A stretch of 64,000 bases of DNA, taken from NCBI RefSeq assembly GCF_000744285.1, contig NZ_JQLQ01000002.1:1054001-1118000 (forward strand), written 5' to 3'. Under the pieces are notes generated by a model. That model had not been told where the DNA came from and did no database searches. It saw only the letters and a program-made list of their open reading frames with translations. Position numbers and translations under genes: made by a program. This document shows positions 868 through 41,738 of the stretch, piece by piece (positions within the stretch are counted from its first letter, which is position 1; the number at the start of each line of letters is the position of its first letter). The DNA comes from Carnobacterium pleistocenium FTR1. GTDB lineage: Bacteria > Bacillota > Bacilli > Lactobacillales > Carnobacteriaceae.

Positions 868-1782
868 TTATTCGTAATAGGAACCATGAGTGGCTCCGCG
901 AATGGTGTAATGTTTTAATAAGATCTTTTGAATTCTTGTCATTGGAATCATAGAATCAATCCAATTATAAATTACAGAAGTTGTTACCTTTAAATCTGGA
1001 AATAATAATTTAAAATCCTCTATTTGACGCAAAATTGTTTCTTCTACTGAAGTTCTATAACCACACGTTTTGCATGAACAGGTTCGTTGAGTAATCGTTA
1101 GGGTAGGGGAGGAGCATTCTGTACACCATAGTCCTTTTTTGAGAAAATGATAAGTGTAATTTGGAAATTTATGTTGAAAAGCTGATTCATCATGGTGTTC
1201 TTTCAGTATTTTATCCGCAAGATAGTGCTGTTTTTTCGACAATGGTAAGACACTCTTATTTATTTTGGAAAAGTGTTCCCGAATTTGTGTTGGGAAAATG
1301 ACTGGTCTATCGATTGGTGCATTGTAAAGAGTGAAAGCAGAATTTACAAAAATGAGGACAGGATCAAGCTTTAGATTACTATTTAATTTACTTAATAGTT
1401 GCCTCCTTTTGATAGAAGTTTCGTCTAATTTATTCAATGGATTCACGATTTCTTTGCCGGGAAAGGTTAAAAGATGATGCGAGTTGAATTCAAAATTCCC
1501 TGCATAATTTTTTACTTCAAATAATAAGATTTTGTCACCTGTCAGAATCAATGTATCGACTTGAAATGTGTTGCCTTTTTCTGTAAACAGTAAATCATTT
1601 AACACCAATGCGTCTAAGTCTAAAAATTCTTCTACCAGCGAATCAAAGAAAAGCTCTCCTTCAAATCCTTTTTGCATATTTAACAAATGAAGTTTTTCCT
1701 CATCTGAAAGTATCATCCGTCTATTTATAGCTTCTAAGGTGCGTAAATAATTCGATTTGTTCCGTTTTTTGACTACTATCAT
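868..1782 (-). CDS. NERD-domain (nuclease-related) protein
   Basis: This 304-residue protein carries the NERD domain in its first half: GFEGE around residue 39-43 (Glu43), QVDTLIL with Asp76, and EVK at 89-91. These correspond to the D...ExK metal-binding core of restriction-like nucleases. Near residues 218-243 four or five cysteines (CTEC, CSCKTC) suggest a small zinc-binding knuckle, and the tail may bind nucleic acid. NERD is known from stand-alone proteins and from fusions to kinases and helicases, and its substrate is poorly defined. The start at 1782 follows AGGAGGTG. The gene stands alone, divergent from the PTS operon beginning at 2084. Confidence 0.8.
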   Translation of the reverse strand: MIVVKKRNKSNYLRTLEAINRRMILSDEEKLHLLNMQKGFEGELFFDSLVEEFLDLDALVLNDLLFTEKGNTFQVDTLILTGDKILLFEVKNYAGNFEFNSHHLLTFPGKEIVNPLNKLDETSIKRRQLLSKLNSNLKLDPVLIFVNSAFTLYNAPIDRPVIFPTQIREHFSKINKSVLPLSKKQHYLADKILKEHHDESAFQHKFPNYTYHFLKKGLWCTECSSPTLTITQRTCSCKTCGYRTSVEETILRQIEDFKLLFPDLKVTTSVIYNWIDSMIPMTRIQKILLKHYTIRGATHGSYYE

Positions 1783-1914: not shown

Positions 1915-1931
1915 TTGAAATAAAATTCCAA
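1915..1931. promoter_or_regulatory. Operator-like palindrome upstream of locus 1
   Basis: TTGAAATAAAATTCCAA is a 17-bp inverted repeat (TTGAAAT-N3-ATTTCAA with one mismatch). It overlaps the -35 box of the putative promoter of the 2084 operon. Near-identical sites occur at 36992-37008 and 37192-37208 by the second MurNAc locus. RpiR-family regulators are encoded at the ends of both loci and are the likely binders (inference). Confidence 0.6.
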
Positions 1932-1943
1932 TTAAGTTATACT
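1915..1943 (+). promoter_or_regulatory. Putative sigma-A promoter of the PTS/MupG/AnmK operon
   Basis: -35 TTGAAA (1915-1920), 17-bp spacer, -10 TATACT (1938-1943). It gives a 5' leader of about 135 bases before the IIB start. The -35 lies inside the 17-bp palindrome, the expected layout for repression. Confidence 0.6.
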
Positions 1944-2083: not shown

Positions 2084-2389
2084 ATGAAAGTTATTATGGT
2101 TTGTTCAGGTGGAATGTCAAGTGCAATAGTGGTTAAAGCGATTAAAGCGGAAGCTGCAAAGCAAGATTTTGAGTTGGATATGATTGCAGTAGGATCTGGA
2201 GCAGTAGAAGAAGAATTGAAAGATGGCGACTATAAACTGTTATTAGTAGCACCTCAAGTCAAACACCAATTTGGGACATTTGAAAAATACGCAAATGAAA
2301 ACGATGTACCGATTGAAAAGGTTGAACCGATGGGCTATACCCCTATTGGAGCACCTAAAACGTTAGAGTTGATTAAGAAATACCGTTAA
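2084..2389 (+). CDS. PTS lactose/cellobiose-family EIIB
   Basis: This 101-residue protein has the EIIB fold of the lactose/cellobiose family. MKVIMVCSGGMSSA carries the phosphocysteine at residue 7, in the loop that receives phosphate from EIIA. It would relay phosphate from the IIA at 6491 to the sugar in the IIC encoded next door. The start follows AGGAGGAAAA. It is the first gene of an eight-gene unit (IIB, IIC, membrane protein, GNAT, MupG, IIA, AnmK, RpiR). The neighbours suggest a peptidoglycan-derived amino sugar rather than cellobiose (inference). Confidence 0.93.
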   Translation: MKVIMVCSGGMSSAIVVKAIKAEAAKQDFELDMIAVGSGAVEEELKDGDYKLLLVAPQVKHQFGTFEKYANENDVPIEKVEPMGYTPIGAPKTLELIKKYR

Positions 2390-2446
2390 ATTTTTTACTT
2401 AAGCTATGCACTTGTTTATTATTATGGATCATTAAGGAGAGTAAAT

Positions 2447-3769
2447 ATGACGAATTTTTTAAATTGGCTTGAAACGAAATTCATGCCACCTTTAGCTAAG
2501 CTTTCTGAGCAAAAACATTTAAAAGCCATCCGCGATGGAGTTATCTCGACATTATCTTTGATTATCATTGGGTGTTTCTTCTTAGTTATTGGAAATCCAC
2601 CGATTGCCTCTTGGGCTGAAGCGATTGCACCTTATGCAGCACAAATTGCGATTCCATTCCGGATCACAACCGGTTTGATGTCTCTCTATGCCGCTTATGG
2701 GATGGGATACAGTTTATCAAAATCATATAAGTTAGATGGGGTTACCGGTGGGGTGCTGTCGTTAGCAACCTTTTTAATGTTAACGGTTCCAGTTAACGTA
2801 GATGCATCCTTACCTGAAGGAGAAGCAATTGGTTGGGTTCTTCCAATGGGAAATCTTGGCGGATCAGGAATGTTTTCAGCTATTTTAGCTATGATCTTTG
2901 CAGTTGAAGTACTGCGTTTATTTAAACAAAAGAACTTGATGATTAAAATGCCAGAACAAGTACCGGATTCCGTTGCCAGAAGTTTTGAAGCATTGATTCC
3001 TGGAACATTTGTCATTGTGTTTGTTTGGATTATCCGTATCTTACTTGGCTTTGACATCAACCAAATTTTGATTAATATTTTTACACCATTAAACAATATT
3101 TTAGGGAATAATTTGATAGGTGTATTATTGCCAGTAGTCTTGATTACAATGCTATGGGCAGCTGGAGTTCACGGTGTGAGTGTTATTGGCTCGATTGTTC
3201 GTCCAATGTGGCTAGTGATGCTTGAAGCAAATGGGCAAGCGATGGTTAGTGGAACACCAAGCAACGAGTTGCCATATATTGCACCCGAACAATTCTACCA
3301 ATGGTTAGTATGGATCGGTGGATCAGGTGCAACGTTATCACTATGTATCTTATTGCTGTTTACAAAATCAGCATACTTAAAACAAGTTGGACGTTTTTCA
3401 ATCATTCCTTCCATTTTTAACATTAATGAACCCTTGATTTTTGGAACACCGATTGTTATGAATCCAATTTTAGCGATTCCATTTGTTGTGGCACCATCTG
3501 TGACAACAACGATCAGTTACTTTGCAGTGAAGTTTGGTGTCATTAATGGCTTTTCCGTAAATGCTCCTTGGACTTTGCCAGCTCCAATAGGCGCGTTCTT
3601 ATCAGCTGGAAACGATTGGAAAGCTGCAGCCTTGGTATTGATCAATATGACAATTGCTGGATTGATCTACTACCCATTTGTTAAAGTTTACGATAAGAAA
3701 ATGGTAGAAGAAGAGCACTCTGAAATGGAAGATAAAAAGAATATGCAAGTGGATACTGCAGCGGTTTAA
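2447..3769 (+). CDS. PTS lactose/cellobiose-family EIIC permease
   Basis: This 440-residue integral membrane protein matches the lactose/cellobiose/diacetylchitobiose EIIC family. It has about ten hydrophobic segments, the family motif INEPLIFGTPIVMNPIL near residues 325-341, and a charged cytosolic tail. It transports and phosphorylates its sugar using the IIB at 2084 and the IIA at 6491. The start at 2447 has AAGGAGAG upstream. Family members import beta-linked disaccharides, including chitobiose, which fits a disaccharide such as a GlcNAc-MurNAc derivative. The adjacent MupG and AnmK support that reading, but the substrate is inferred from context only. Confidence 0.93.
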   Translation: MTNFLNWLETKFMPPLAKLSEQKHLKAIRDGVISTLSLIIIGCFFLVIGNPPIASWAEAIAPYAAQIAIPFRITTGLMSLYAAYGMGYSLSKSYKLDGVTGGVLSLATFLMLTVPVNVDASLPEGEAIGWVLPMGNLGGSGMFSAILAMIFAVEVLRLFKQKNLMIKMPEQVPDSVARSFEALIPGTFVIVFVWIIRILLGFDINQILINIFTPLNNILGNNLIGVLLPVVLITMLWAAGVHGVSVIGSIVRPMWLVMLEANGQAMVSGTPSNELPYIAPEQFYQWLVWIGGSGATLSLCILLLFTKSAYLKQVGRFSIIPSIFNINEPLIFGTPIVMNPILAIPFVVAPSVTTTISYFAVKFGVINGFSVNAPWTLPAPIGAFLSAGNDWKAAALVLINMTIAGLIYYPFVKVYDKKMVEEEHSEMEDKKNMQVDTAAV

Positions 3770-3843
3770 AATGTGAAAGAAAGGGCTGTTTAGGCAAGAT
3801 AATAGTCAGTCCTTTCTTAGTTTGATAAAAGGAGGATCTCAAT

Positions 3844-4143
3844 ATGCGAATTGCACTCATTATTTTTCTAATTGGTTTTGTATTAGCAGGTGTCATGTTG
3901 GTCGGATTTTTGCAGAAAAAAAACATTTGCATCAATCGGTGGATTTTTGGATTTGCAGCTTTCTTAGTAGTCTTGATCCCAACGATTCTATTTCAAAACT
4001 TGCCAACAGCCGTGAATTATAGTTTGTATTTATTATCAGGATTGTGCGCTATTATGTTTTTTGAAACAGGTCGCATTATGATTGAAAAGAACCAAGTAAA
4101 AGGTTTGATTCGTGCGAACCAGTTTCCAAAAAAGAAAAAGTAG
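3844..4143 (+). CDS. Small membrane protein of unknown function
   Basis: A 99-residue protein with three predicted membrane segments (about residues 3-23, 31-50 and 57-77) and a basic C-terminus ending KKKK. The start at 3844 follows AAAGGAGG with good spacing. A longer-looking alternative frame from 3822 overlaps it but lacks membrane-protein character. I do not recognise the family. Its place between the IIC and GNAT genes ties it to the amino-sugar operon, perhaps as an accessory membrane subunit. Confidence 0.7.
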   Translation: MRIALIIFLIGFVLAGVMLVGFLQKKNICINRWIFGFAAFLVVLIPTILFQNLPTAVNYSLYLLSGLCAIMFFETGRIMIEKNQVKGLIRANQFPKKKK

Positions 4144-4177
4144 TTCAAACCATTCTTGAACAGAAGAGGGTGCAGAT

Positions 4178-5356
4178 ATGAAGTGCGATTATCGTTTGAT
4201 ACGAGAAGATGAAATCAATCAGATCGTGAAAATTAGAGACTATTGTTTTCGTCATCAATATACTGGGAATTACTTAGAAGATTTTCTTCACTGGGCTAAA
4301 ATCAGTAAGACAATTGGCGCATTTGATGGAGAAAAATTAGCCGGACAAGTGATGGTGTTCCCACTAAACATGACGATACATCATCAACCATTTGCTATGG
4401 GAGGGATATCATTCGTCGCTACATATCCTGAGTACCGAAATGCAGGAGTTATGAAGAACTTATTGACAAGAAGCTTAGAAGAAATGAGGAAACAAGACCA
4501 ACTCATATCGGTTTTAGGCCCTTTTTCAGTTTCTTTTTATCGTCATTTTGGTTGGGATTTATTCTTTGATAAAGTCGATTATACGTTTCCCTTTGATTTG
4601 TTTAACTCGAAAAAATATGATATGGGTCATTTGGAACGCTTTAGTTATACTGAGAACCGAGAACAATTGGAACTCGTAAAAGAGTTGTACCACAAATATG
4701 CTCTTCAAACGAATGGGATGATGGTTCGTAATGAAGACTGGTGGAAACGCTTGGAATTAAGACAGCCAGATGCATCATTTGCTTTAAGTATCGCTGAAAA
4801 TGGACAGCCTCAAGGATATATCCGTTACGTTATGAACGACCAAACATTTGAAGTACTGGATCAAGTTGCTCTTAACCTGACAGCCGAAAAAGCTTTATGG
4901 GAATTCATCAAAGTCCACCGTTCTAATTTCACTCATGTAACGGGTGCGGCAGCTGCTCATCAGTCTTTTGGTACTCAATGGGATGAACCGCAATTCAAAA
5001 AAGAAGTAGTGCATGACAAAATGATTCGTATTGTAGATGTTGAACGCTTTTTAACCGTTTATCTATTTCAAGGATTGACCAAGCGATTGTACCTAAAAGT
5101 GACAGATGCATTTGCACCTTGGAATGAAGGAGTCTATAGGATTGATTCAAAAGAAGTAACTAAATTGAGTGAGAAAGACGTGTCATTAGATGAGTGTTTA
5201 ATGATGGACATTTCAAGTTTGTCATCGTATTTAGTAGGCTACCACGACCTTAAGTGGTACCAGTATCAAGGGAAAGCAAGTGGTTCGAAACATGTCTTAA
5301 AAGAATGGGACAAAGTAATTCCAAAAAATCATCCACAATTTTATGGCCATTTTTAA
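4178..5356 (+). CDS. Eis-like GNAT-family N-acetyltransferase
   Basis: This 392-residue protein has an N-terminal GNAT fold with the acetyl-CoA loop in FVATYPEYRNAGVMKNLL (about residues 82-99). A second GNAT-like half and a C-terminal region of sterol-carrier type follow, which is the three-part plan and length of the Eis family. Eis proteins acetylate amines on aminoglycosides or peptides using acetyl-CoA. The start follows AGAGGG. The stop overlaps a possible upstream start of the next gene, and the two are clearly co-transcribed. Inside an amino-sugar operon it might re-acetylate de-N-acetylated sugars (inference); the native acceptor is unknown. Confidence 0.82.
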   Translation: MKCDYRLIREDEINQIVKIRDYCFRHQYTGNYLEDFLHWAKISKTIGAFDGEKLAGQVMVFPLNMTIHHQPFAMGGISFVATYPEYRNAGVMKNLLTRSLEEMRKQDQLISVLGPFSVSFYRHFGWDLFFDKVDYTFPFDLFNSKKYDMGHLERFSYTENREQLELVKELYHKYALQTNGMMVRNEDWWKRLELRQPDASFALSIAENGQPQGYIRYVMNDQTFEVLDQVALNLTAEKALWEFIKVHRSNFTHVTGAAAAHQSFGTQWDEPQFKKEVVHDKMIRIVDVERFLTVYLFQGLTKRLYLKVTDAFAPWNEGVYRIDSKEVTKLSEKDVSLDECLMMDISSLSSYLVGYHDLKWYQYQGKASGSKHVLKEWDKVIPKNHPQFYGHF

Positions 5357-5381
5357 ATTTAAAGAAATGAGGAAAGAATAC

Positions 5382-6476
5382 ATGAGAAGATTAGGCATTT
5401 CTGTTTATCCAAATCATAGTTCAGTATCAGAAATCAGAGACTATATTGATTTAGCAGCAGGTTACAACTTTAAACGGGTATTTACATGTTTGTTATCCGT
5501 AGAAGGCGATAAAGAAACAATCGTTCAAGAATTTACCGATGTGATTTCACATGCTAAAGAAAAAGGGATGGAAGTTATTGCAGATGTGAGTCCAAAAGTA
5601 TTTGGTGAACTAGGCATCAGTTACAATGATTTAACGTTTTTTAAAGAAATTGGTGCGGACGGTATTCGTCTGGACATGGGCTTTACTGGAAACGAAGAAT
5701 CGATTATGACATTTAATTCGCAAGAATTGAAAATTGAATTGAATATCAGTAGTGGAACTAAATACTTAGATAATATCATGAGTTATCAAGCGAATGCGGA
5801 TAACTTAATGGGGTGCCATAATTTTTACCCACATCGCTATACAGGGTTAAATTACGACCATTTTATCGAAACGAGTAAGCAATACAAAGCACATGGGATA
5901 GTGACAGCTGCGTTTGTCAATTCGCCTTCTTCACATATTGGACCATGGCCTGTCAACGAAGGATTATGTACGCTTGAAATGCATCGTGAGTGGCCAATTG
6001 AGGTTCAAGCCAAGCACTTATGGGCAACCGAAGTTATTGATGACGTGATTATTGCTAATGCATTTGCTAGTGAAGCTGAGCTGAAAGCCTTAAGTGAAAT
6101 TAATTCTTACCAATTAACACTTATGTGTGAATTAGAAGAGAGCGTTCCTGAACTAGAAGAAAAAATCGTCGTAGAAGAATTCCATTTTAATCGCGGAGAT
6201 GTATCGGATTATGTGGTTCGCTCGACTCAAAGCCGTGTGAAGTATAAAGGGCATGAATTTGCACCATTCAACACACCGGATATGAAAAAAGGCGATATCA
6301 TTATCGAGACATCCTTATATGCTCATTATGCCGGTGAACTGCAAGTCGCCTTGCAGCCAATGAAAAATTCTGGCAAATCGAATGTTGTTGGACATGTTGT
6401 AGAAGAAGAACAGTTCTTATTGGACTATTTAAAACCTTGGCAAAAATTTCAATTTAAACTAAAGTCAAACGATTAA
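5382..6476 (+). CDS. mupG: MupG-type 6-phospho-N-acetylmuramidase (DUF871)
   Basis: A 364-residue protein of the DUF871 family: a TIM-barrel domain beginning RLGISVYPNHSS, then a C-terminal cyclophilin-like domain. In Staphylococcus aureus MupG cleaves MurNAc6P-GlcNAc, taken up by a PTS, into MurNAc-6-phosphate and GlcNAc in the cytosol. I chose the ATG at 5382, preceded by GAGGAAAG. An in-frame ATG at 5343 would overlap the GNAT gene and lacks a good ribosome site. A paralog lies at 37258 next to murQ and murP. Two copies beside two different PTS permeases suggest different phospho-disaccharide substrates. Confidence 0.88.
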   Translation: MRRLGISVYPNHSSVSEIRDYIDLAAGYNFKRVFTCLLSVEGDKETIVQEFTDVISHAKEKGMEVIADVSPKVFGELGISYNDLTFFKEIGADGIRLDMGFTGNEESIMTFNSQELKIELNISSGTKYLDNIMSYQANADNLMGCHNFYPHRYTGLNYDHFIETSKQYKAHGIVTAAFVNSPSSHIGPWPVNEGLCTLEMHREWPIEVQAKHLWATEVIDDVIIANAFASEAELKALSEINSYQLTLMCELEESVPELEEKIVVEEFHFNRGDVSDYVVRSTQSRVKYKGHEFAPFNTPDMKKGDIIIETSLYAHYAGELQVALQPMKNSGKSNVVGHVVEEEQFLLDYLKPWQKFQFKLKSND

Positions 6477-6490
6477 AGGAGCAGACAAAA

Positions 6491-6811
6491 ATGGAAGATT
6501 TGGAAATGATTATTTTCGACATTATTGGGCACGGAGGAAATGCTCGCGCATTGGCCTATGAAGCACTCGGAAAAGCTCGTGCGGGGGAATATGAAGAATG
6601 CGACCGATTGATGGAAGAATGTAAAAATGAAATGAATTTGGCTCACAATACGCAAACAAAATTAGTACAAGACGAAATTCGTGGTGAAGATATAAAAATC
6701 AGCTTAATATTGATTCACGCTCAAGACCAATTGATGACGTCAATGGCAGAACAAACCTTGATCATGCAAATGATCGAAATGCAAAAAGAATTGAATGCGT
6801 TAAAAAACTAA
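6491..6811 (+). CDS. PTS lactose/cellobiose-family EIIA
   Basis: A 106-residue all-helical EIIA of the lactose/cellobiose family. The phospho-histidine is His76 in LILIHAQDQLM, and an early helix reads GHGGNARALAYEAL. It takes phosphate from HPr and hands it to the IIB at 2084. The start follows AAAGGAG at 6477-6482. IIA is split from IIB and IIC by three genes, but it is the only such IIA in the operon, so the three subunits should form one permease. Confidence 0.93.
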   Translation: MEDLEMIIFDIIGHGGNARALAYEALGKARAGEYEECDRLMEECKNEMNLAHNTQTKLVQDEIRGEDIKISLILIHAQDQLMTSMAEQTLIMQMIEMQKELNALKN

Positions 6812-6824
6812 AAGAGGTGATAAA

Positions 6825-7961
6825 ATGGCCTTTGCAGTCGGAATTATGTCAGGCACATCTCTAGATGGCGTTGACGCCGCATTAGTAGAGATTCATGGAA
6901 CCAATACCGATACAACTGTTCAATTAATGGAATTTACAACTTATCCATTAAGTACTGAAATTGTAAAAAAAATAAAAGATGTCTTATCGGTTGAAACCTC
7001 TTCAGTGGATAAAATTTGTAGTTTAAATGTTGAATTAGGGTATGTCTTTAGTGAAGCTGCTAAAGCAGTGTGTGAAAAAGCAGACTTCGCGCTTGATCAA
7101 GTCGATTTTGTAGCTTCACATGGTCAAACGATTTACCATTTGCCTGTTCCGGGATCTCATCAATCAGCTTCTACTTTTCAAATTGGGGAGTCAGCTATTA
7201 TAGCGGAAGAAACTAAAACAATGGTCGTATCCGATTTTAGAACACGAGACATGGCAGTAAACGGTCAAGGTGCTCCAATTGTGCCCTATTCTGAATTTGT
7301 CTTATATCGAGACGCTGAACGGACACGTTTATTGCAAAACATTGGCGGAATCGGAAATGTGACGATTATTCCTAGTGGAGCGCAAATAGAAGAAATTATT
7401 GCATTTGATACAGGGCCTGGGAATATGATCATTGATGAATTGTGCCAGTTCTTTTACCAAGAAGCTTATGATAAAAATGGTGAGCATGCTTCTCAAGGAA
7501 TAGTAGACCAAGAAATGTTAAGTGAGATGATGGCTCATCCTTATATTGAAAGAAAATATCCTAAAACTACCGGAAGAGAAGATTTTGGAGCAGAATATAC
7601 AGCAAATCTAATTGGACAATGGCAAAATAAGGTAGCACCAGATGACTTCATTGCAACAGCCACTCGATTTACGGCTCAGTCTATTGCCGTAAATATAAGC
7701 CCGTTTATTGATCAACAGACAGAACTTATTATCGGAGGTGGTGGAAGTTACAATCCTACTTTAGTTCAAATGATCAAAGAACAGTTGCCTGAAATATCGG
7801 TGCTTATCCAAGAAGAAGTAGGCTTTTCTTCTGAAGCTAAAGAAGCGATTGCGATGACTATATTAGCGAACCAGACCATTCATCATTTGCCAAGCAATGT
7901 TCCAAGTGCTACAGGCGCAATGAAACCTGTCATACTAGGAAAGATAACGTATTATCATTAG
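6825..7961 (+). CDS. anmK: Anhydro-N-acetylmuramic acid kinase
   Basis: This 378-residue protein matches AnmK: the phosphate-binding GIMSGTSLDGVDAALVEI at residues 6-23, FVASHGQTIYH, DTGPGNMIIDE and the late IIGGGGSYNP motif of the ASKHA fold. AnmK opens the 1,6-anhydro ring of anhydroMurNAc and phosphorylates O6, giving MurNAc-6-phosphate for MurQ. The start follows AGAGGTG. AnmK substrates come from lytic transglycosylases, so its presence with a PTS and MupG implies recycling of anhydro-muropeptides. MurQ itself is encoded about 31 kb away, at 38339. Confidence 0.93.
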   Translation: MAFAVGIMSGTSLDGVDAALVEIHGTNTDTTVQLMEFTTYPLSTEIVKKIKDVLSVETSSVDKICSLNVELGYVFSEAAKAVCEKADFALDQVDFVASHGQTIYHLPVPGSHQSASTFQIGESAIIAEETKTMVVSDFRTRDMAVNGQGAPIVPYSEFVLYRDAERTRLLQNIGGIGNVTIIPSGAQIEEIIAFDTGPGNMIIDELCQFFYQEAYDKNGEHASQGIVDQEMLSEMMAHPYIERKYPKTTGREDFGAEYTANLIGQWQNKVAPDDFIATATRFTAQSIAVNISPFIDQQTELIIGGGGSYNPTLVQMIKEQLPEISVLIQEEVGFSSEAKEAIAMTILANQTIHHLPSNVPSATGAMKPVILGKITYYH

Positions 7962-8014
7962 ATTGCTTTCTCTTGAAGATTCCTGTATCTTTTGATTATA
8001 CGAGGTGAAACAAC

Positions 8015-8866
8015 ATGATTAGAAATAATATTCTAGGTCGAATTAAAAGTGTCCTTGATGATTTGCCTAATTCTGAAAGAAAAATTGGCGAGTACATTCT
8101 TAAGAATCCTGAAGAGACCATTAAAATGACAACAGCACAACTGGGAATAGCCGCAGATTCAAATTCGACGGCTGTTATTCGGCTGTGTAATCGAATTGGT
8201 GTTAACGGATTTACAAAACTAAAAGTAAACTTATCTGCAGAAATCGTATCGGTGGATGAATCTGGTTATGCGGAAATAGAGGCAGAGGAAAAAAGCAGCA
8301 CGATCAAAAGCAAACTATTAGCTAATGCCTTTAAATCAATGGAAGAAACCATTTCATTGATGAATGAGTTTGATATTGAACGTGTCGTAGAATTGATTGA
8401 AGCTGCTTCTATGGTTTATGTTTATGGTGTTGGAAATTCAAGAATCATTGCTGAAAATATGGTGCAAAAGTGGAGTAAAGTAGGGAAAATATTTATTTGT
8501 CCAACTGATAATCACCAACTGGTATCCATGTTAGGTGCAACTCCAAAAAATGCTCTTTTTTTCGGTATATCTAACTCAGGAGAAACAAAGGAAATTATCG
8601 AACTGATTAAATTAGCTAAAAAAAAATCCATAAAAACTATTGGATTAACTCAATTCGGACAAAATAGTATATCAAATAGAGCCGATTACACAATTCAGAC
8701 TGTCAAAAAAATAGAAACGAATAATCAGTTTATTTCGAGTTCCCTACATGCTCAGATGATTGCAATTGATGTATTATTTTACTCATTTCTGTCTAAAAAC
8801 TATATAGCAGTTACTGAAAAAATGAAACTATCAAAGGAAGAAATGGATCAATACAAGAAGAGATAG
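8015..8866 (+). CDS. RpiR-family regulator with SIS domain
   Basis: 283 residues: an N-terminal RpiR helix-turn-helix (about 1-77, with ATAVIRLCNRIG-like recognition helix) and a C-terminal SIS sugar-phosphate-binding domain (about 125-260, with VYVYGVGNSRIIAENM and FFGISNSGETKEIIELIK). MurR, its best-known relative, senses MurNAc-6-phosphate. It is the last gene of locus 1, after an AGGTGAAAC start context. A second RpiR protein is encoded at 40881. The shared operator suggests that one or both control the two loci. A modest hairpin with a T run follows at 8889-8923. Confidence 0.9.
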   Translation: MIRNNILGRIKSVLDDLPNSERKIGEYILKNPEETIKMTTAQLGIAADSNSTAVIRLCNRIGVNGFTKLKVNLSAEIVSVDESGYAEIEAEEKSSTIKSKLLANAFKSMEETISLMNEFDIERVVELIEAASMVYVYGVGNSRIIAENMVQKWSKVGKIFICPTDNHQLVSMLGATPKNALFFGISNSGETKEIIELIKLAKKKSIKTIGLTQFGQNSISNRADYTIQTVKKIETNNQFISSSLHAQMIAIDVLFYSFLSKNYIAVTEKMKLSKEEMDQYKKR

Positions 8867-22462: not shown

Positions 22463-22802
22463 AATGATAAATTGATTAGAGTAACATTAAAATTGATTTT
22501 ATAAACACGAAGAAAAGAAGAGTACATTTTAAGCGATACTTGTAGAGAGCCTTGGTTGGTGAAAAGAGGCAGTAGAACTGAAATGGAAGATGGTCTTGGA
22601 GTGGAATGATCGAAAGTTTATGGACTTTAGATGATTACGGGTACACCCGTTACAGTGTCACAGTATTAATAGGTTCTCTTTGAACTAAACGTACTGGTTA
22701 AGGTAAGAGCTGCGAAGCTTTTATAAAACAAGGTGGTAACACGAGAGAATTTAACTTTCCGTCCTTGCACAAAGATTTTTTGTGCAGGGGCGGATTTTTT
22801 TT
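22463..22802 (+). promoter_or_regulatory. T-box riboswitch, probably methionine-specific
   Basis: The leader shows a Stem I with base pair block ATAAAC/GTTTAT (22501-22506 with 22616-22621), an AGTA loop-E segment and the conserved GAGAGCC-TTGGTTGGTG region. It then carries the T-box sequence AAGGTGGTAACACG (22730-22743) and a terminator hairpin with TTTTTTTT (22758-22802). The best specifier is ATG at 22606-22608, followed by A, in GGAATGATCG. Uncharged tRNA-Met would stabilise the antiterminator and allow transcription. The genes below (aminotransferase and MetQ) fit methionine. The specifier assignment is an inference by eye; ATC is a less likely alternative. Confidence 0.9.
22758..22802 (+). 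terminator. T-box regulatory terminator
   Basis: TCCGTCCTTGCACAAA pairs with TTTGTGCAGGGGCGGA, followed by eight Ts. Confidence 0.85.
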
Positions 22803-36352: not shown

Positions 36353-36976
36353 TTATTGCAAATGACCGATCTGGTTCCAAGTAGTCAAGGTGAATTTCCC
36401 ATCAGCGTAACCGAGTTCAGAAATACTCGTATTTGCCAGCGGTTCTTGAGAACGAAGATCTTTCAGATCCATTCCAATCAGTGACAAAAGTGTCATTGTC
36501 CAGATGATGCTGTGTCCAACAAACAATAAATCAGTATCAGGAAATTGTTCAATAGCTTGATGGATCGCTTCGCTTCCTCTAGCAATCAACGCTGGATACG
36601 TTTCTCCATTAAAGTCACTAGGGTCATACAAATCTGGCCGATTACGCAAATTATAAAAAGTGTCAGGTGATGTTTCATGCCATTGAGTCGTAAACGTTCC
36701 TTCCCGTGAACCATAGCCAAATTCCTTGAGATCATCTAGGTAATGCATAGTGAAATCTTGATCAAATTGTGAAGTGATCAGACGAGCAGTTTCGGCCGCC
36801 CGTTCCTGAGGGCTAGCGAAAATATGTTCAAATCCATAATCTTTAAGGTGCTGGCCCGTTTTCTTAGCATCTTCTAAACTTTGCGGCAATAAGGGAGAAT
36901 CAATACTCCCACCCTGGATCCGAGCCGCTAAATTGTATTCGGTCATTCCATGACGGATAAAAAATAGTCGTTGCAT
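36353..36976 (-). CDS. Histidine phosphatase (phosphoglycerate-mutase-like)
   Basis: 207 residues with the RHGMTEYN motif (catalytic His9), DDLKEFGYGSREG, and the second catalytic histidine in LLFVGHSIIWTM. It belongs to the branch-1 histidine phosphatases that remove phosphate from small metabolites. The start follows AGGAGGAC. The gene is divergent from mupG of the MurNAc locus. Its upstream region carries the same 17-bp palindrome (36992-37008), so it may be part of that regulon, perhaps acting on a sugar phosphate (inference). Confidence 0.85.
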   Translation of the reverse strand: MQRLFFIRHGMTEYNLAARIQGGSIDSPLLPQSLEDAKKTGQHLKDYGFEHIFASPQERAAETARLITSQFDQDFTMHYLDDLKEFGYGSREGTFTTQWHETSPDTFYNLRNRPDLYDPSDFNGETYPALIARGSEAIHQAIEQFPDTDLLFVGHSIIWTMTLLSLIGMDLKDLRSQEPLANTSISELGYADGKFTLTTWNQIGHLQ

Positions 36977-36991
36977 AATCGTCCTCCTATA

Positions 36992-37008
36992 TTGAAATAT
37001 AATTTCAG
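36992..37008. promoter_or_regulatory. Operator-like palindrome by phosphatase gene
   Basis: TTGAAATATAATTTCAG, the TTGAAAT-N3-ATTTCAA motif with one mismatch, lies just upstream of the phosphatase ribosome site, exactly 200 bp from the sister site at 37192. Confidence 0.6.
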
Positions 37009-37191: not shown

Positions 37192-37208
37192 TTGAAATTA
37201 TATTTCAA
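37192..37208. promoter_or_regulatory. Operator-like palindrome by mupG-murQ-murP
   Basis: TTGAAATTATATTTCAA has perfect 7-bp arms around TAT. It covers the -35 and spacer of the mupG promoter. Matching sites are at 1915 and 36992. Confidence 0.68.
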
Positions 37209-37219
37209 CATGTTATGAT
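37192..37219 (+). promoter_or_regulatory. Putative promoter of the MurNAc operon
   Basis: -35 TTGAAA, 16-bp spacer, -10 TATGAT (37214-37219) preceded by TGT. It overlaps the palindrome, so a bound RpiR-type regulator would block it. Confidence 0.6.
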
Positions 37220-37257: not shown

Positions 37258-38334
37258 ATGTTTGGAGTATCTGTCTTTCTGGGCGAGGCGTTAACGATTG
37301 AGACAAAAGCTTATCTGCAAGCAATGAAAGACAGTGGTTTTGAAGGTGTGTTTACTTCCGTGCATATCCCAGAAGAAGACGCATCTCAATATGTGAAACG
37401 TTTAAAGACGCTAGGGGAATGGACCAAGGAATTGGGCATGCAACTAGTGGTTGATAGTTCAGGAGAAGCTTTGCGGAAAATTGGTTTTTCATTTGAGCGA
37501 CCTGAAGAAATGCTGGCTATTGGGATCACTGGTTTAAGAATGGATTATGGCATCACAAACCAAATCAGCGCTCAAGTCAGCCAATCGATGATGGTGGCGT
37601 TCAATGCGAGTACGATTACGCAAGAAGATGTAGAAGAGTTGCAGCAATTTCATGCAAACTTCGATCAAATGGAAGCGTGGCACAATTACTATCCGCGGCC
37701 AGAAACAGGTTTAGAAAAAGAATCGTTTAGCCGTAAAAATCAGTGGCTGAAAGCACTAGGATTCAAGGTAATGGCTTTTGTTCCCGGAAATGAAACTTTA
37801 AGAGGTCCTTTATTTTCTCGATTGCCAACGTTGGAAAAGCACCGCGGACTACATCCATTGGCCAGTACGATCGAGTTGTTAGAAGACTGTGCAGTTGATG
37901 CTGTTTATATTGGAGATCCAACCATTGATGATCGAACAAAACAGCAATTTTTTTATTATATCAAAAAACAAACGCTCTTATTTTCAATTGAAGAAGTTCC
38001 AGAAACAAACTATCTAGCTGCCGTTGTTGGAAACCACCAAAATCGGTGGGATGCAGCAAGAGATGTCATCCGAAGTGCCGATGCACGATTCAAAACCATT
38101 TCGACAATTGAACCACAACACACGAATGATCGTGTACAAGGAAGCATTACACTAGACAACAAGTTATACGGGCGATATATGGGCGAAATTCAACTAGTCA
38201 AGCGACCGCTGTTTAAAGATGAAAAGGTAAATATTGTAGCGCATGTTATCCCAGAGGACCTTTCATTAATAGACTGGTGCAAAGCAGGACAACTATTTGA
38301 ACTTCAACCGATACAGAACAACGAAAGAGGTTAA
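37258..38334 (+). CDS. mupG: MupG-type 6-phospho-N-acetylmuramidase (second copy)
   Basis: 358 residues of the DUF871/MupG family, from MFGVSVFLGEAL through a TIM barrel to a C-terminal cyclophilin-like domain (about residues 240-355). It should split MurNAc6P-GlcNAc made by the MurP permease into MurNAc-6P and GlcNAc. The start follows GGAGGGGTG. It heads mupG-murQ-murP-rpiR, the order seen for MurNAc catabolism in Firmicutes. It is clearly diverged from the copy at 5382, so recent duplication is unlikely. Confidence 0.9.
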   Translation: MFGVSVFLGEALTIETKAYLQAMKDSGFEGVFTSVHIPEEDASQYVKRLKTLGEWTKELGMQLVVDSSGEALRKIGFSFERPEEMLAIGITGLRMDYGITNQISAQVSQSMMVAFNASTITQEDVEELQQFHANFDQMEAWHNYYPRPETGLEKESFSRKNQWLKALGFKVMAFVPGNETLRGPLFSRLPTLEKHRGLHPLASTIELLEDCAVDAVYIGDPTIDDRTKQQFFYYIKKQTLLFSIEEVPETNYLAAVVGNHQNRWDAARDVIRSADARFKTISTIEPQHTNDRVQGSITLDNKLYGRYMGEIQLVKRPLFKDEKVNIVAHVIPEDLSLIDWCKAGQLFELQPIQNNERG

Positions 38335-38338
38335 CGAA

Positions 38339-39229
38339 ATGAATTTAGCTAAATTAACGACTGAGACGAGAAACAGTCAAACCATGAACTTAGACGAGCT
38401 TTCGACAAGTGAAGTCATAACTTTGATGAATCAAGAAGACCAAAAAGTGGCTTTAGCTGTGGAAGAAGCAGTGCCAATGATCACAAAAGTAGTTGAAGTT
38501 ATTATTGAAGCCTTTAGCAAAGGCGGACGCTTGATCTATATGGGTGCTGGAACAAGTGGACGATTAGGTGTTTTAGATGCAGCTGAATGTGTGCCAACGT
38601 TTAGTGTGGATCCAAGTATGGTCCAAGGATTGATTGCTGGTGGAATGAAAGCCATGACAGTGGCTGTTGAAGGCGCGGAAGATTCAAAAACGCTGGGTGC
38701 AGAAGATCTAGCAGCGATCCAGTTGAGCGATAAAGATGTCGTTGTCGGTATTGCCGCAAGCGGCCGTACACCCTATGTTATCGGTGGGTTAGACTATGCG
38801 ACTCGTGTCGGAGCAAAAACCGCGACGATTTCATGCAACAAGCAAGCTGAAATCAGCCAATTTGCGCAAATGCCGATCGAAGTAGATGCTGGTCCAGAAG
38901 TGCTGACGGGTTCTACTCGCTTAAAAGCGGGCACTGCTCAGAAACTAATTTTAAATATGTTGTCAACGGGTGCAATGATCGGTTCAGGCAAAGTTTACCA
39001 AAACTTAATGGTAGACGTGAAACCGTCTAATAAAAAATTAGAAGAACGGTCAAAACGCATTATTATGCAAGCGACAGAATGTACGTATGAAAAAGCTAGT
39101 GAAATATTTGAAGCAGCTGATCAGCAAGTGAAATTAGCCATCGTGATGATTTTAACGGATTCAGATAAAACGACAGCAGCACAAAAATTAACAGCAGCTA
39201 AAGGGTTTATTCGCGAAACCTTAGCCTAA
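38339..39229 (+). CDS. murQ: N-acetylmuramic acid 6-phosphate etherase
   Basis: 296 residues of the MurQ family: LTTETRN near the start, a SIS domain with YMGAGTSGRLGVLDAAECVPTF (contains the conserved catalytic Glu), TVAVEGAEDS and VVGIAASGRTPYVIGGL. A helical C-terminus carries TGSTRLKAGTAQKL. MurQ removes lactate from MurNAc-6P to give GlcNAc-6P. ATG 38339 follows GAAAGAGG and gives the normal N-terminus; the open frame begins earlier, inside mupG. It is the only etherase in the window and would also serve the AnmK product of locus 1. Confidence 0.95.
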   Translation: MNLAKLTTETRNSQTMNLDELSTSEVITLMNQEDQKVALAVEEAVPMITKVVEVIIEAFSKGGRLIYMGAGTSGRLGVLDAAECVPTFSVDPSMVQGLIAGGMKAMTVAVEGAEDSKTLGAEDLAAIQLSDKDVVVGIAASGRTPYVIGGLDYATRVGAKTATISCNKQAEISQFAQMPIEVDAGPEVLTGSTRLKAGTAQKLILNMLSTGAMIGSGKVYQNLMVDVKPSNKKLEERSKRIIMQATECTYEKASEIFEAADQQVKLAIVMILTDSDKTTAAQKLTAAKGFIRETLA

Positions 39230-39246
39230 AATAGGAGGAGAAAAAA

Positions 39247-40743
39247 ATGGCCGAAACTAAAGAGCAGCGTATAGCTAGACAGGTTTATGAACAAGTTGGT
39301 GGGATGGGGAACGTCGACTCTGTTATTCACTGTATGACACGTGTTCGGATGGACATCAAAGACAATGCTAAAGTGAACTTAGCAGGACTGAAGAAAATTG
39401 ACGGCGTGATGGGTGTTGTGGAAGATGATACTTTGCAAGTCGTTGTTGGACCGGGTACGGTAAATAAAGTAGCGAATCAAATGGTTGAAATGGCGGGTGT
39501 TCGTTTAGGCGACAAGATTCCGGCTGGCAAATCAACTACACCAGTATCTGGCCGTTCGGAAGCCGAAAAAAAAGCTAATGCAAACAAAGCTGAATTAAAA
39601 AAGAAAAACAATACGCCATTCAAGCGTGTCTTAAAAGATATCGCGAACATCTTCGTTCCCTTGATTCCTGCATTTGTAGGAGCTGGGATTATCGGTGGGA
39701 TCGCATCTATTTTTGGGAATATGTTAATTGCTGAACAAATTAGTGGCGCAAACTGGGAGAATAGTATTGTTGTATTGAACATCATTAAAAACGGCTTATT
39801 CTTATACTTGAATGTCTATGTAGGGATCAATGCAGCCAAAGTATTTGGCGCGACAGAAGGTCTTGGTGGGGTCGTTGCTGGGATTATTTACCTTCCAGGA
39901 ATGAATGTTGAAGCACCACTGACCAATATCTTCACTGGTGCTCCAATGGTTGCTGGACAAGGCGGGATTATCGGCGTTATCTTGGCTGTTTACCTCTTGT
40001 CAGTAGTAGAAAAAAACTTGCGTAAAGTTATTCCAGATTCAATCGATATTATTGTAACACCGACAATCTCTCTGTTAGCAATCGGATTAGTCACGATCTT
40101 CTTGATCATGCCGATCGCAGGGGCTGTATCAACTAGTTTAGTTGGAGCCATCACCTGGGTCTTAAATGTGGGAGGAGCTTTTGCTGGATTTGTTTTAGGG
40201 GCCTTGTTCTTACCAATGGTTATGTTTGGTTTACACCAAATTTTAACACCGATCCATATCGAAATGATTGCTTCTCAAGGGATGACACTGTTATTGCCCA
40301 TTTTAGCAATGGCTGGTGCTGGTCAAGTGGGGGCTTCAATCGCTCTTTGGGTAAAATGTCGTAAAAACAAACAATTAACAAATATGATCAAAGGATCCTT
40401 GCCAGTTGGTATTTTAGGCATTGGCGAACCATTGATTTATGCTGTCACCTTGCCTTTAGGTCGTCCGTTCATTACGGCATGTATCGGTGGCGGTATTGGC
40501 GGAGCTGTTATTGGATTATTTGGTGGCATCGGTGCAACTGCGATCGGACCAAGTGGAGTTGCCTTGATTCCGTTGATTGCAAATGGTCAATGGTGGGGCT
40601 ACGTTGTTGGATTATTAGCAGCTTATGCTGGTGGATTCGCAGCAACTTACTTCTTTGGCGTTCCTAAATCAGCTATGGAACCAACAGAATTAGTAACGTA
40701 TGATGAGGAAGAAGAATTCGCATCAGAAAGTATTGTTGGCTAA
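39247..40743 (+). CDS. murP: MurNAc-type PTS EIIBC permease
   Basis: 498 residues: an N-terminal glucose-family EIIB domain (about 1-85, phosphocysteine Cys29 in [11 protein letters not shown]), a basic linker, then an EIIC domain (about 125-480) with [20 protein letters not shown]. There is no IIA domain, as in E. coli MurP, so a IIA of the glucose type must be borrowed. Placement between murQ and an RpiR regulator supports MurNAc or MurNAc-GlcNAc as substrate. The start follows AGGAGGAG. Confidence 0.92.
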
Positions 40744-40787
40744 TTGGATTTATAAACTGTAAACTAATACTATAGCAATAGCGTTTG

Positions 40788-40826
40788 AAAAAGACATGTG
40801 AGTCTAATGATTTGCATGTCTTTTTT
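40788..40826. terminator. Terminator after murP
   Basis: AAAAAGACATG and CATGTCTTTTT with a 16-base loop, then Ts. It would separate murP from most rpiR transcription. Confidence 0.75.
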
Positions 40827-40880
40827 CAGCTCAAAATGAAATAAAATTGCGTTTTTCAATAAATATGGAGGTTGCAGTTT

Positions 40881-41738
40881 ATGCAAAATAATGTCTTGTT
40901 GACCATTAGAGAAAAAATGATTGCTTTGCCGCAATCAGAAAAAAAAATTGCCGAAACGATTTTAAAAAATCCAGTGAGGATTATCCAAATGAGTGCGACA
41001 GAGCTGGCAACTGAAGCAGGGTCCAGTTCAGCTGCTGTGATTCGCTTTTGCCGGTCGATCGGCATAAAGGGCTTTACCGAGTTGAAGCTGCAATTATCTG
41101 CCGATTCGCAGGGGATCAAAGATAACTTATACACAGATATTCTATCAGACGAAAGTTTAGAACAGGTGAAAAAAAAGTTGCTGATCAATACCAATCATTT
41201 GTTTAGAGAAACCAATAATGTGTTGAACACAGAACAAATCGAGCGCGTTACAGAACTGTTATATCAAAGTTCGGTGATTTATTTGTACGGTTTAGGTGCC
41301 TCACACATTGTGGCTTCAGATATCCAACAAAAATTTAGCCGCACGGGGAAAATAGCGGTTTGTTCCCTTGATCAACACTTGTTAGTCACTTCAATGGCAG
41401 TCGCTTCTAAGGATGCAGTATTTTTTGGTATTTCAAATAGTGGGGAAAAGAGAGAAGTCTTGGCATTAATGAGGATTGCAAAAGAGTTGGGACTGAAAAC
41501 AGTGTCACTCACAAGTAATACAGAGAATGCCTTGAGTCTTGAAGCTGATCTTCCTTTAAAAACGGCTTTTGCTCATGAAGCTCCTTTAAGAAGCGGAGCC
41601 ACGATTTCATTGTTGACTCAAATGTATGCTGTCGATATTTTATTTTACAGCTATGCCTCTAAACATTTTGAGTTGACCGTCACAAATTTAGAAAAATCAA
41701 AGGCGGCTATTCAACGCTACAATCAGAATTTTAATTAA
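40881..41738 (+). CDS. RpiR/MurR-like regulator with SIS domain
   Basis: 285 residues: an RpiR helix-turn-helix (about 1-75, AAVIRFCRSIGIKGFTELK) and a SIS domain (about 120-255; VIYLYGLGASHIVA, FFGISNSGEKREVLALMR). It is a good MurR candidate, sensing MurNAc-6P and binding the 17-bp palindromes (inference). ATG 40881 is nine bases after GGAGG; the in-frame TTG at 40872 touches the ribosome site. It is similar along its length to the protein at 8015. A long hairpin follows at 41742-41810. Confidence 0.9.
   Translation: MQNNVLLTIREKMIALPQSEKKIAETILKNPVRIIQMSATELATEAGSSSAAVIRFCRSIGIKGFTELKLQLSADSQGIKDNLYTDILSDESLEQVKKKLLINTNHLFRETNNVLNTEQIERVTELLYQSSVIYLYGLGASHIVASDIQQKFSRTGKIAVCSLDQHLLVTSMAVASKDAVFFGISNSGEKREVLALMRIAKELGLKTVSLTSNTENALSLEADLPLKTAFAHEAPLRSGATISLLTQMYAVDILFYSYASKHFELTVTNLEKSKAAIQRYNQNFN

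Follow-up and report, generated by a model that had tools for sequence, protein, structure and literature searches.

A phosphotransferase operon with a GH170 glycosidase and AnmK in Carnobacterium pleistocenium FTR1: a probable recycling route for the anhydro-disaccharide of peptidoglycan

The stretch of DNA analyzed here (the window, 64,000 nucleotides) covers positions 1,054,001 to 1,118,000 of contig NZ_JQLQ01000002.1 of Carnobacterium pleistocenium FTR1 (assembly GCF_000744285.1), and encodes at 2084-8866 an operon for a lactose-family (Lac) phosphotransferase system (PTS), a glycosidase of family GH170 and the anhydro-N-acetylmuramic acid kinase AnmK. This operon probably serves to recycle N-acetylglucosamine-beta-1,4-anhydro-N-acetylmuramic acid (GlcNAc-anhMurNAc), which lytic transglycosylases release from peptidoglycan. 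The core of the operon is beyond chance and recurs around AnmK across many genera. The following genes were predicted (aa, amino acids; ORF, open reading frame; GNAT, GCN5-related N-acetyltransferase):

2084-2389, plus strand, PTS Lac-family IIB (PF02302; VCSGGMSS stretch)
2447-3769, plus strand, PTS Lac-family IIC (PF02378, TIGR00410; homologue of PDB 3qnq)
3844-4143, plus strand, hydrophobic ORF of 99 aa (no family matched)
4178-5356, plus strand, Eis-like GNAT acetyltransferase (PF13527, PF17668, PF13530)
5382-6476 (frame open from 5343), plus strand, GH170 glycosidase of the Lac-PTS-linked, ChbE-like kind (PF19200, 329 bits; PF05913)
6491-6811, plus strand, PTS Lac-family IIA (PF02255; HAQDQLM stretch)
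6825-7961, plus strand, AnmK, anhydro-N-acetylmuramic acid kinase (PF03702, 351 bits; NCBIfam NF007142, 529 bits, cut-off 435)
8015-8866, plus strand, RpiR/MurR-family regulator (PF01418, PF01380)

The eight genes lie tightly packed on the same strand, as seen from the ORF listing and profile searches, and these place the PTS components, small membrane protein, GNAT, AnmK and RpiR regulator where a first-pass annotation of the window had put them. Its assignment of the PTS to the lactose/cellobiose type also agrees with these hits; IIA, IIB and IIC are separate proteins of the Lac/cellobiose class, as in Lac-family PTS permeases. The VCSGGMSS stretch of IIB presumably holds the phosphoryl-Cys site. 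IIC aligns over nearly the full length of PDB 3qnq (cellobiose-specific IIC component; 311 bits), and retains His, Glu and Trp stretches that we take to be sugar-binding in 3qnq. The combination of a Lac PTS with a GH170 of the Lac-linked clade is of the ChbABC/ChbE type; no DUF3284 match was found among the operon proteins, and the gene order is not that of a chb operon, whereas DUF3284 was found at two loci of relatives (L142 and L126 in our numbering of loci). The window genome is a relative of Carnobacterium jeotgali, the best named match encoding a GH170 that is 94% identical to the window's.

In peptidoglycan, anhMurNAc is the terminal residue of a strand and follows GlcNAc. Because its 1,6-bridge takes up the 6-OH, it cannot be the sugar phosphorylated by a PTS. 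A PTS that feeds AnmK must hence phosphorylate GlcNAc, and the glycosidase must cut behind GlcNAc 6-phosphate (GlcNAc6P), which is not the MupG reaction. As we infer the transported sugar, the phosphorylation site and the glycosidase specificity, the Lac-family PTS would import GlcNAc-anhMurNAc and phosphorylate O6 of its GlcNAc, and the GH170 at 5382 would split GlcNAc6P-anhMurNAc into GlcNAc6P and anhMurNAc; by their family functions, AnmK would convert anhMurNAc to N-acetylmuramic acid 6-phosphate (MurNAc6P), from which MurQ would yield GlcNAc6P and D-lactate. MurQ is encoded in the mup cluster of the window genome; in many relatives its gene is part of the operon itself. This route and that of mupG-murQ-murP would be co-regulated by a repressor of the RpiR type, which would bind a palindrome common to the two operons and respond to a presumed inducer. 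The window genome contains an MltG-family lytic transglycosylase and one SLT-domain match, in a 1632-aa frame that is perhaps a phage protein.

In Lacticaseibacillus paracasei, growth on N,N'-diacetylchitobiose genetically requires the GH170 enzyme ChbE as well as a PTS of the cellobiose class, with GlcNAc6P and GlcNAc as the products proposed by the authors (PMC12791066); this makes it probable that a GH170 can cut behind GlcNAc6P, and the enzyme at 5382 is a proposed 6-phospho-N-acetylglucosaminidase. Import of a disaccharide ending in anhMurNAc, as suggested in the first-pass annotation, appears to be the best reading of the operon in view of this chemistry, the tie to AnmK, the exchange with another transporter and glycosidase, and the shared palindrome.

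AnmK was found over cut-off in 50 of 246 Lactobacillales genomes and in 61 of 299 Bacilli genomes (57 of them outside the first set), and 90 AnmK loci were examined, i.e. all 50 of Lactobacillales and 40 of the 57 others. Counts were made by tblastn, with Lac IIC accepted within 9 kb and permeases of ATP-binding cassette (ABC) transporters within 6 kb of AnmK. AnmK hits under cut-off (genomes G144, G151, G304, G318, G351) were left out, the AnmK of G244 is in two pieces, and a NagZ-like match of 24% identity (L052) and an ABC match at 8 kb (L047) were not counted. Lac IIC is present at 52 of the 90 loci and an ABC transporter at 30, both at none; likewise GH170 is present at 48 and NagZ at 14, both at none. 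The IIC loci carry GH170 in 47 of 52 cases and NagZ in none, and the ABC loci carry GH170 in none of 30 and NagZ in 13. Two genera (g28 and g112) each hold both solutions, in different species. PTS plus GH170 and ABC plus NagZ replace each other at AnmK loci of Bacilli. The synteny that the first-pass annotation had proposed to look for is thus present across genera for PTS, GH170 and AnmK; the GNAT, which it had included, stands outside the general pattern.

NagZ over the cut-off was found in 5 of 246 Lactobacillales genomes (4 of these among the 50 with AnmK), compared with 105 of the 299 Bacilli genomes; both samples contain many weaker matches of GH3 type. The window genome gave no NagZ match over cut-off, its sole GH3 lying in a 733-aa frame. 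None of the 50 AnmK genomes lacks a GH170 of some type, and among the 246 Lactobacillales genomes as a whole 191 have one. The proposed route would be a possible reason why AnmK occurs in genomes where no NagZ reaches the cut-off. Of the 48 AnmK loci with GH170, 21 have MurQ within 9 kb. One Lactobacillales locus (L033, genome G101) represents the ABC alternative, with an ABC transporter, NamZ, a small GNAT, NagZ, AnmK, RpiR and MurQ in one cluster.

A single AnmK sequence used as query against the contigs of named genomes found no relative. An alignment of 11 proteins of the operon's GH170 kind (GH170a) gave 531 relatives, the best 80 of which form a sample picked by glycosidase alone and partly from the same species as the 90-locus set (genera include Carnobacterium, Enterococcus, Vagococcus, Clostridium, Bacillus, Peribacillus and Rossellomorea). 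Within 8 kb, these best 80 of 531 show AnmK at 51 loci, Lac IIC at 69, MurQ at 37, a BadF/BadG kinase at 63, and NagZ at none; the end of the contig truncates some of these loci.

The operon also has a palindrome in common with the mup cluster of the same window. The features concerned are:

1915-1931, plus strand, operator-like palindrome TTGAAATAAAATTCCAA, one mismatch to TTGAAATNNNATTTCAA, overlapping the first hexamer of the promoter-like site
1915-1943, plus strand, promoter-like site TTGAAA-17-TATACT before the operon
36353-36976, minus strand, histidine-phosphatase-like gene, divergent, just behind the palindrome at 36992-37008
36992-37008, plus strand, second operator-like palindrome, one mismatch to TTGAAATNNNATTTCAA, before the minus-strand histidine-phosphatase gene
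37192-37208, plus strand, exact TTGAAATNNNATTTCAA palindrome, overlapping the first hexamer of the promoter-like site before mupG
37192-37219, plus strand, promoter-like site before mupG
37258-38334, plus strand, GH170 of MupG type, mupG proper (motifs, gene order)
38339-39229, plus strand, MurQ, MurNAc6P etherase (over family cut-off)
39247-40743, plus strand, MurP-like PTS IIBC (best NCBIfam match PRK09586, MurNAc IIBC, 338 bits, below the cut-off of 516)
40872-41738, plus strand, MurR/RpiR-family regulator of the mup cluster (family match, gene order)

The order mupG-murQ-murP-murR at 37258-41738 matches that of the mupG operon of Staphylococcus aureus, as given in the part of that paper covered (PMC6262408). 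A MurP at 39247, thought to handle MurNAc or MurNAc-GlcNAc, had been noted in the first-pass annotation, and a MurP-like IIBC indeed lies there in one cluster with MurQ and the MupG-type gene.

Within the window, four palindrome matches occur at up to two mismatches, which is not surprising as 20 of 100 shuffles reach that number; the promoter-like sites are no commoner than in shuffles (28 versus 27.6, and 11 versus 12.7), so that the promoter reading rests on their position, not on their number. Usable promoter regions were available for 47 of the 50 Lactobacillales AnmK loci and 35 of the 40 others, and all 139 rearranged half-sites served as controls. The palindrome precedes Lactobacillales AnmK operons in 20 of 47 cases at up to one mismatch (controls: mean 0.02, maximum 1) and in 30 of 47 at up to two (mean 0.60, maximum 6); without the window's genus, the counts are 19 and 28 of 43, and of 18 genera 7 and 10 have it (controls: means 0.02 and 0.52, maxima 1 and 4). 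Enrichment of the palindrome before Lactobacillales AnmK operons is thereby shown. Within 4 kb of a GH170, at up to one mismatch, it occurs at 19 of 42 AnmK-linked loci and at 0 of the 31 others. Even some members of the window's own genus are without the motif: two genus mates (L039, L044) have no palindrome within two mismatches. None was found at up to two mismatches within 4 kb at L142. CcpA-type cre-like sites gave matches only at one or two mismatches to loose patterns. From its position behind the palindrome at 36992-37008, the histidine-phosphatase-like gene may belong to the same regulon.

Several observations weigh against the proposed route. Counted by genus (41 genera), GH170 occurs in 20, NagZ in 9 and both in 2 (Fisher p = 0.13); as exclusion at this level is not significant, what carries the argument is not a locus p-value but the way in which transporter and glycosidase types pair up, together with the swaps within genera. 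The scarcity of NagZ holds for a strict cut-off, with 170 of the 246 Lactobacillales genomes having some match, mostly weaker GH3-type. Among the 50 Lactobacillales AnmK loci, five have IIC without a nearby GH170 and two have neither, and a nearby NagZ is missing at 17 of the 30 ABC loci. The palindrome was chosen with the window's own two promoters in view. At two mismatches within 4 kb it is found at 31 of 42 AnmK-linked loci and also at 9 of 31 others, and within 6 kb the other loci reach 2 of 31 (one mismatch; AnmK-linked, 21 of 42) and 12 of 31 (two mismatches; AnmK-linked, 33 of 42); outside Lactobacillales the counts are 1 and 4 of 35, with best controls of 2 and 7. AnmK is missing within 8 kb in 29 of the best 80 relatives, some of them on short contigs. 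AnmK linkage of GH170 does not form one clade, the tree requiring nine changes, and three loci with about 73-76% identical GH170 (L126, L131, L133) have no AnmK nearby and a distant IIC. Finally, a wider range of substrates is suggested by the many AnmK-PTS operons that encode, in addition, a phospho-glycosidase of family GH4 or GH1 and a BadF/BadG kinase. A GH4-type match was found in 43 of the best 80 named loci, and at L202, L232, L239 and others; GH4 (elsewhere GH1) beside GH170 may serve N-deacetylated disaccharides.

An alternative is a general PTS for N-acetylhexosamine disaccharides, chiefly N,N'-diacetylchitobiose; AnmK would then be a bystander or act on a minor substrate. The homology of IIC to 3qnq, presumably a diacetylchitobiose permease, agrees with this, as do ChbE being a GH170, the close GH170a relatives without AnmK (some beside DUF3284, like the chb operon) and the frequency of BadF/BadG kinases at the named loci. 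It would however leave unexplained AnmK itself, the presence of MurQ in related operons, the palindrome common with mupG-murQ-murP and absent (one mismatch, 4 kb) from all 31 other GH170 loci, and the exchange with ABC plus NagZ, and we consider it improbable, if the strongest of the alternatives. Many of the 29 loci without AnmK belong to clostridia with a BadF/BadG kinase. This suggests that different operons handle different reducing-end sugars, each with the kinase that fits: AnmK where the sugar is anhMurNAc, a MurK/NagK-like kinase where it is MurNAc or GlcNAc. A BadF/BadG (MurK/NagK-like) kinase over cut-off was not found in the window genome, which has three weaker matches; this leaves AnmK as the sole operon-linked kinase.

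The window genome encodes two GH170 enzymes, both inside the window (5382 and 37258), and Pfam names both MupG; the one at 5382 carries PF19200 and PF05913, the domains of the MupG family. The first-pass annotation had called it MupG. In that case the enzyme would split MurNAc6P-GlcNAc into MurNAc6P and GlcNAc, as MupG does, acting on the substrate of the mup cluster, and AnmK would serve another import route. We regard this as very unlikely. The two paralogues share 27% identity, and AnmK-linked GH170 show a mean identity of 26.6% to the MupG type versus 51.6% to other Lac-clade GH170 (46 AnmK-linked, 32 other and 18 MupG-type sequences). Here, MupG type is defined by gene order with MurQ-MurP, the S. 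aureus MupG being outside the alignment; 35 matches in 200 Bacilli genomes gave 30 such loci (window counted in), and the 18 sequences are from 17 of these (plus-strand, length filter) plus the second gene of L054. The motifs FTSxHIPE and YPRxETG are present in 18 of 18 MupG-type and 0 of 46 AnmK-linked sequences, and the latter have YPHRY in 41 and CLLSV in 42 cases; among solved structures, PDB 2p0o carries the MupG motifs and PDB 1x7f, of the other GH170 type, is without them. In a tree of 82 GH170 rows (83 before one of up to 330 aa was left out), the four MupG-type rows split off with a branch support of 100/100. The transporter partner is also another one, a MurP-like gene lying within 1.5 kb of GH170 in 28 of 30 MupG-type loci; the gene at 37258 is in an operon with MurQ-MurP, whereas that at 5382 is not. 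The enzyme would moreover be redundant with that at 37258 and would leave AnmK unexplained. By sequence, tree, motifs, neighborhood and the chemistry required, we reject the identification of 5382 as MupG; the name is a family label there, not that of an orthologue, and the annotation is to be corrected in that a GH170 subfamily carries the name MupG.

The identity of AnmK, the only one in the window genome, is supported by the PF03702 and NF007142 models. A different 1,6-anhydro sugar as substrate of the kinase, such as levoglucosan released from cellobiosan, is hardly credible: a levoglucosan kinase is its top structure match (235 bits versus 229 bits for AnmK 3cqy), but the protein passes the AnmK equivalog cut-off and keeps the AnmK-like stretches LPSNVPSATGA and GQGAPIVP, which the aligned levoglucosan kinases lack, and MurQ stands in the operons of relatives. 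Weak AnmK-like matches in frames of about 410 aa were seen in two other genomes (G144, G151).

A small hydrophobic ORF adjoins IIC at 40 of the 52 AnmK loci with IIC versus 6 of 19 other GH170 loci. These proteins belong to no known family and to at least two sequence types; the protein is a candidate accessory subunit of the PTS. Among the window's kin, five AnmK loci (window, L034, L039, L043, L044) have the GNAT as a neighbor of GH170, and Eis-like GNATs lie directly beside GH170 at four loci without AnmK (L133, 44% identity; L134, L137 and L139, 23-25%), so that the GNAT goes with GH170 and not with AnmK. We can only guess at its role, possibly re-N-acetylation of the glucosamine of deacetylated fragments; GlmA of Clostridium acetobutylicum is such a re-acetylating GNAT.

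A wider proposal, for which we see the chances as about even, is that of a widespread PTS pathway of Bacillota for peptidoglycan anhydro-disaccharides, in which a GH170 subfamily would replace NagZ as 6-phospho-N-acetylglucosaminidase, the unassigned membrane protein would be a PTS accessory, the GNAT would repair N-deacetylated sugars in some genera, and one regulon would include the MurNAc-GlcNAc route. The palindrome may join the two recycling routes in that regulon. Other features of the window comprise a NERD-domain protein gene (868-1782, minus strand), between an EIIA-man gene and the operon, and a T-box leader at 22501-22769 (101.6 bits).

What Gram-negative bacteria recycle is mainly the products of lytic transglycosylases. 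For Gram-positive bacteria, no description of the recovery of these products was found in the open-access literature searched, which excludes theses and subscription papers; nor did it yield a paper on a 6-phospho-N-acetylglucosaminidase or on a PTS that takes up GlcNAc-anhMurNAc. All enzyme classes of the proposed route are already known, and its novelty lies in the combination of PTS, GH170 and AnmK for peptidoglycan recycling; it offers a concrete, testable recycling pathway found in many Bacillota. For Enterococcus cecorum, a k-mer analysis reports nearly the same distribution among strains for a 'lichenan permease IIC' and for AnmK (84 and 85 of 113; 14 and 14 of 33), with no link drawn between them in the part of the text covered (PMC13391275).

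Among the known systems, each compared here from the portions of the papers covered, the MurP-MupG-MurQ route of S. aureus imports a peptidoglycan disaccharide by PTS and cleaves it with a GH170 phospho-glycosidase (PMC6262408). It has these two features, MurQ downstream and a MurR-like regulator in common with the proposed route, but its PTS is of the MurP IIBC type, the bond cut is that behind MurNAc6P and its operon is without AnmK; its counterpart in the window is the cluster at 37258-41738, separate from 2084-8866. The L. paracasei chb operon similarly combines a cellobiose-class PTS with a GH170 and the proposed product GlcNAc6P, and differs in its substrate (chitobiose) and a DUF3284 accessory, with AnmK and MurQ unmentioned in the text covered (PMC12791066). 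A chb-like locus in our set (L142) comprises a GntR-looking regulator, IIC, DUF3284 and GH170, with IIB and IIA divergent, and its GH170 is 46% identical to the enzyme at 5382. The cellobiose-type PTS with a DUF871/GH170 gene of Bacillus coagulans (CELO2) has the same pair of components, but is tied to cellobiose uptake, and the term AnmK is missing from the text covered (PMC6271610). In Gram-negative bacteria NagZ works with AnmK on anhydromuropeptides (PMC5061867); these AmpG/NagZ/AnmK systems, and the ABC/NagZ/AnmK loci of Bacilli, have in common with the proposed route the splitting of GlcNAc-anhMurNAc, the release of anhMurNAc, AnmK and then MurQ, but they import without phosphorylation and use NagZ (GH3), where the operon of the window has a PTS and a GH170 instead.

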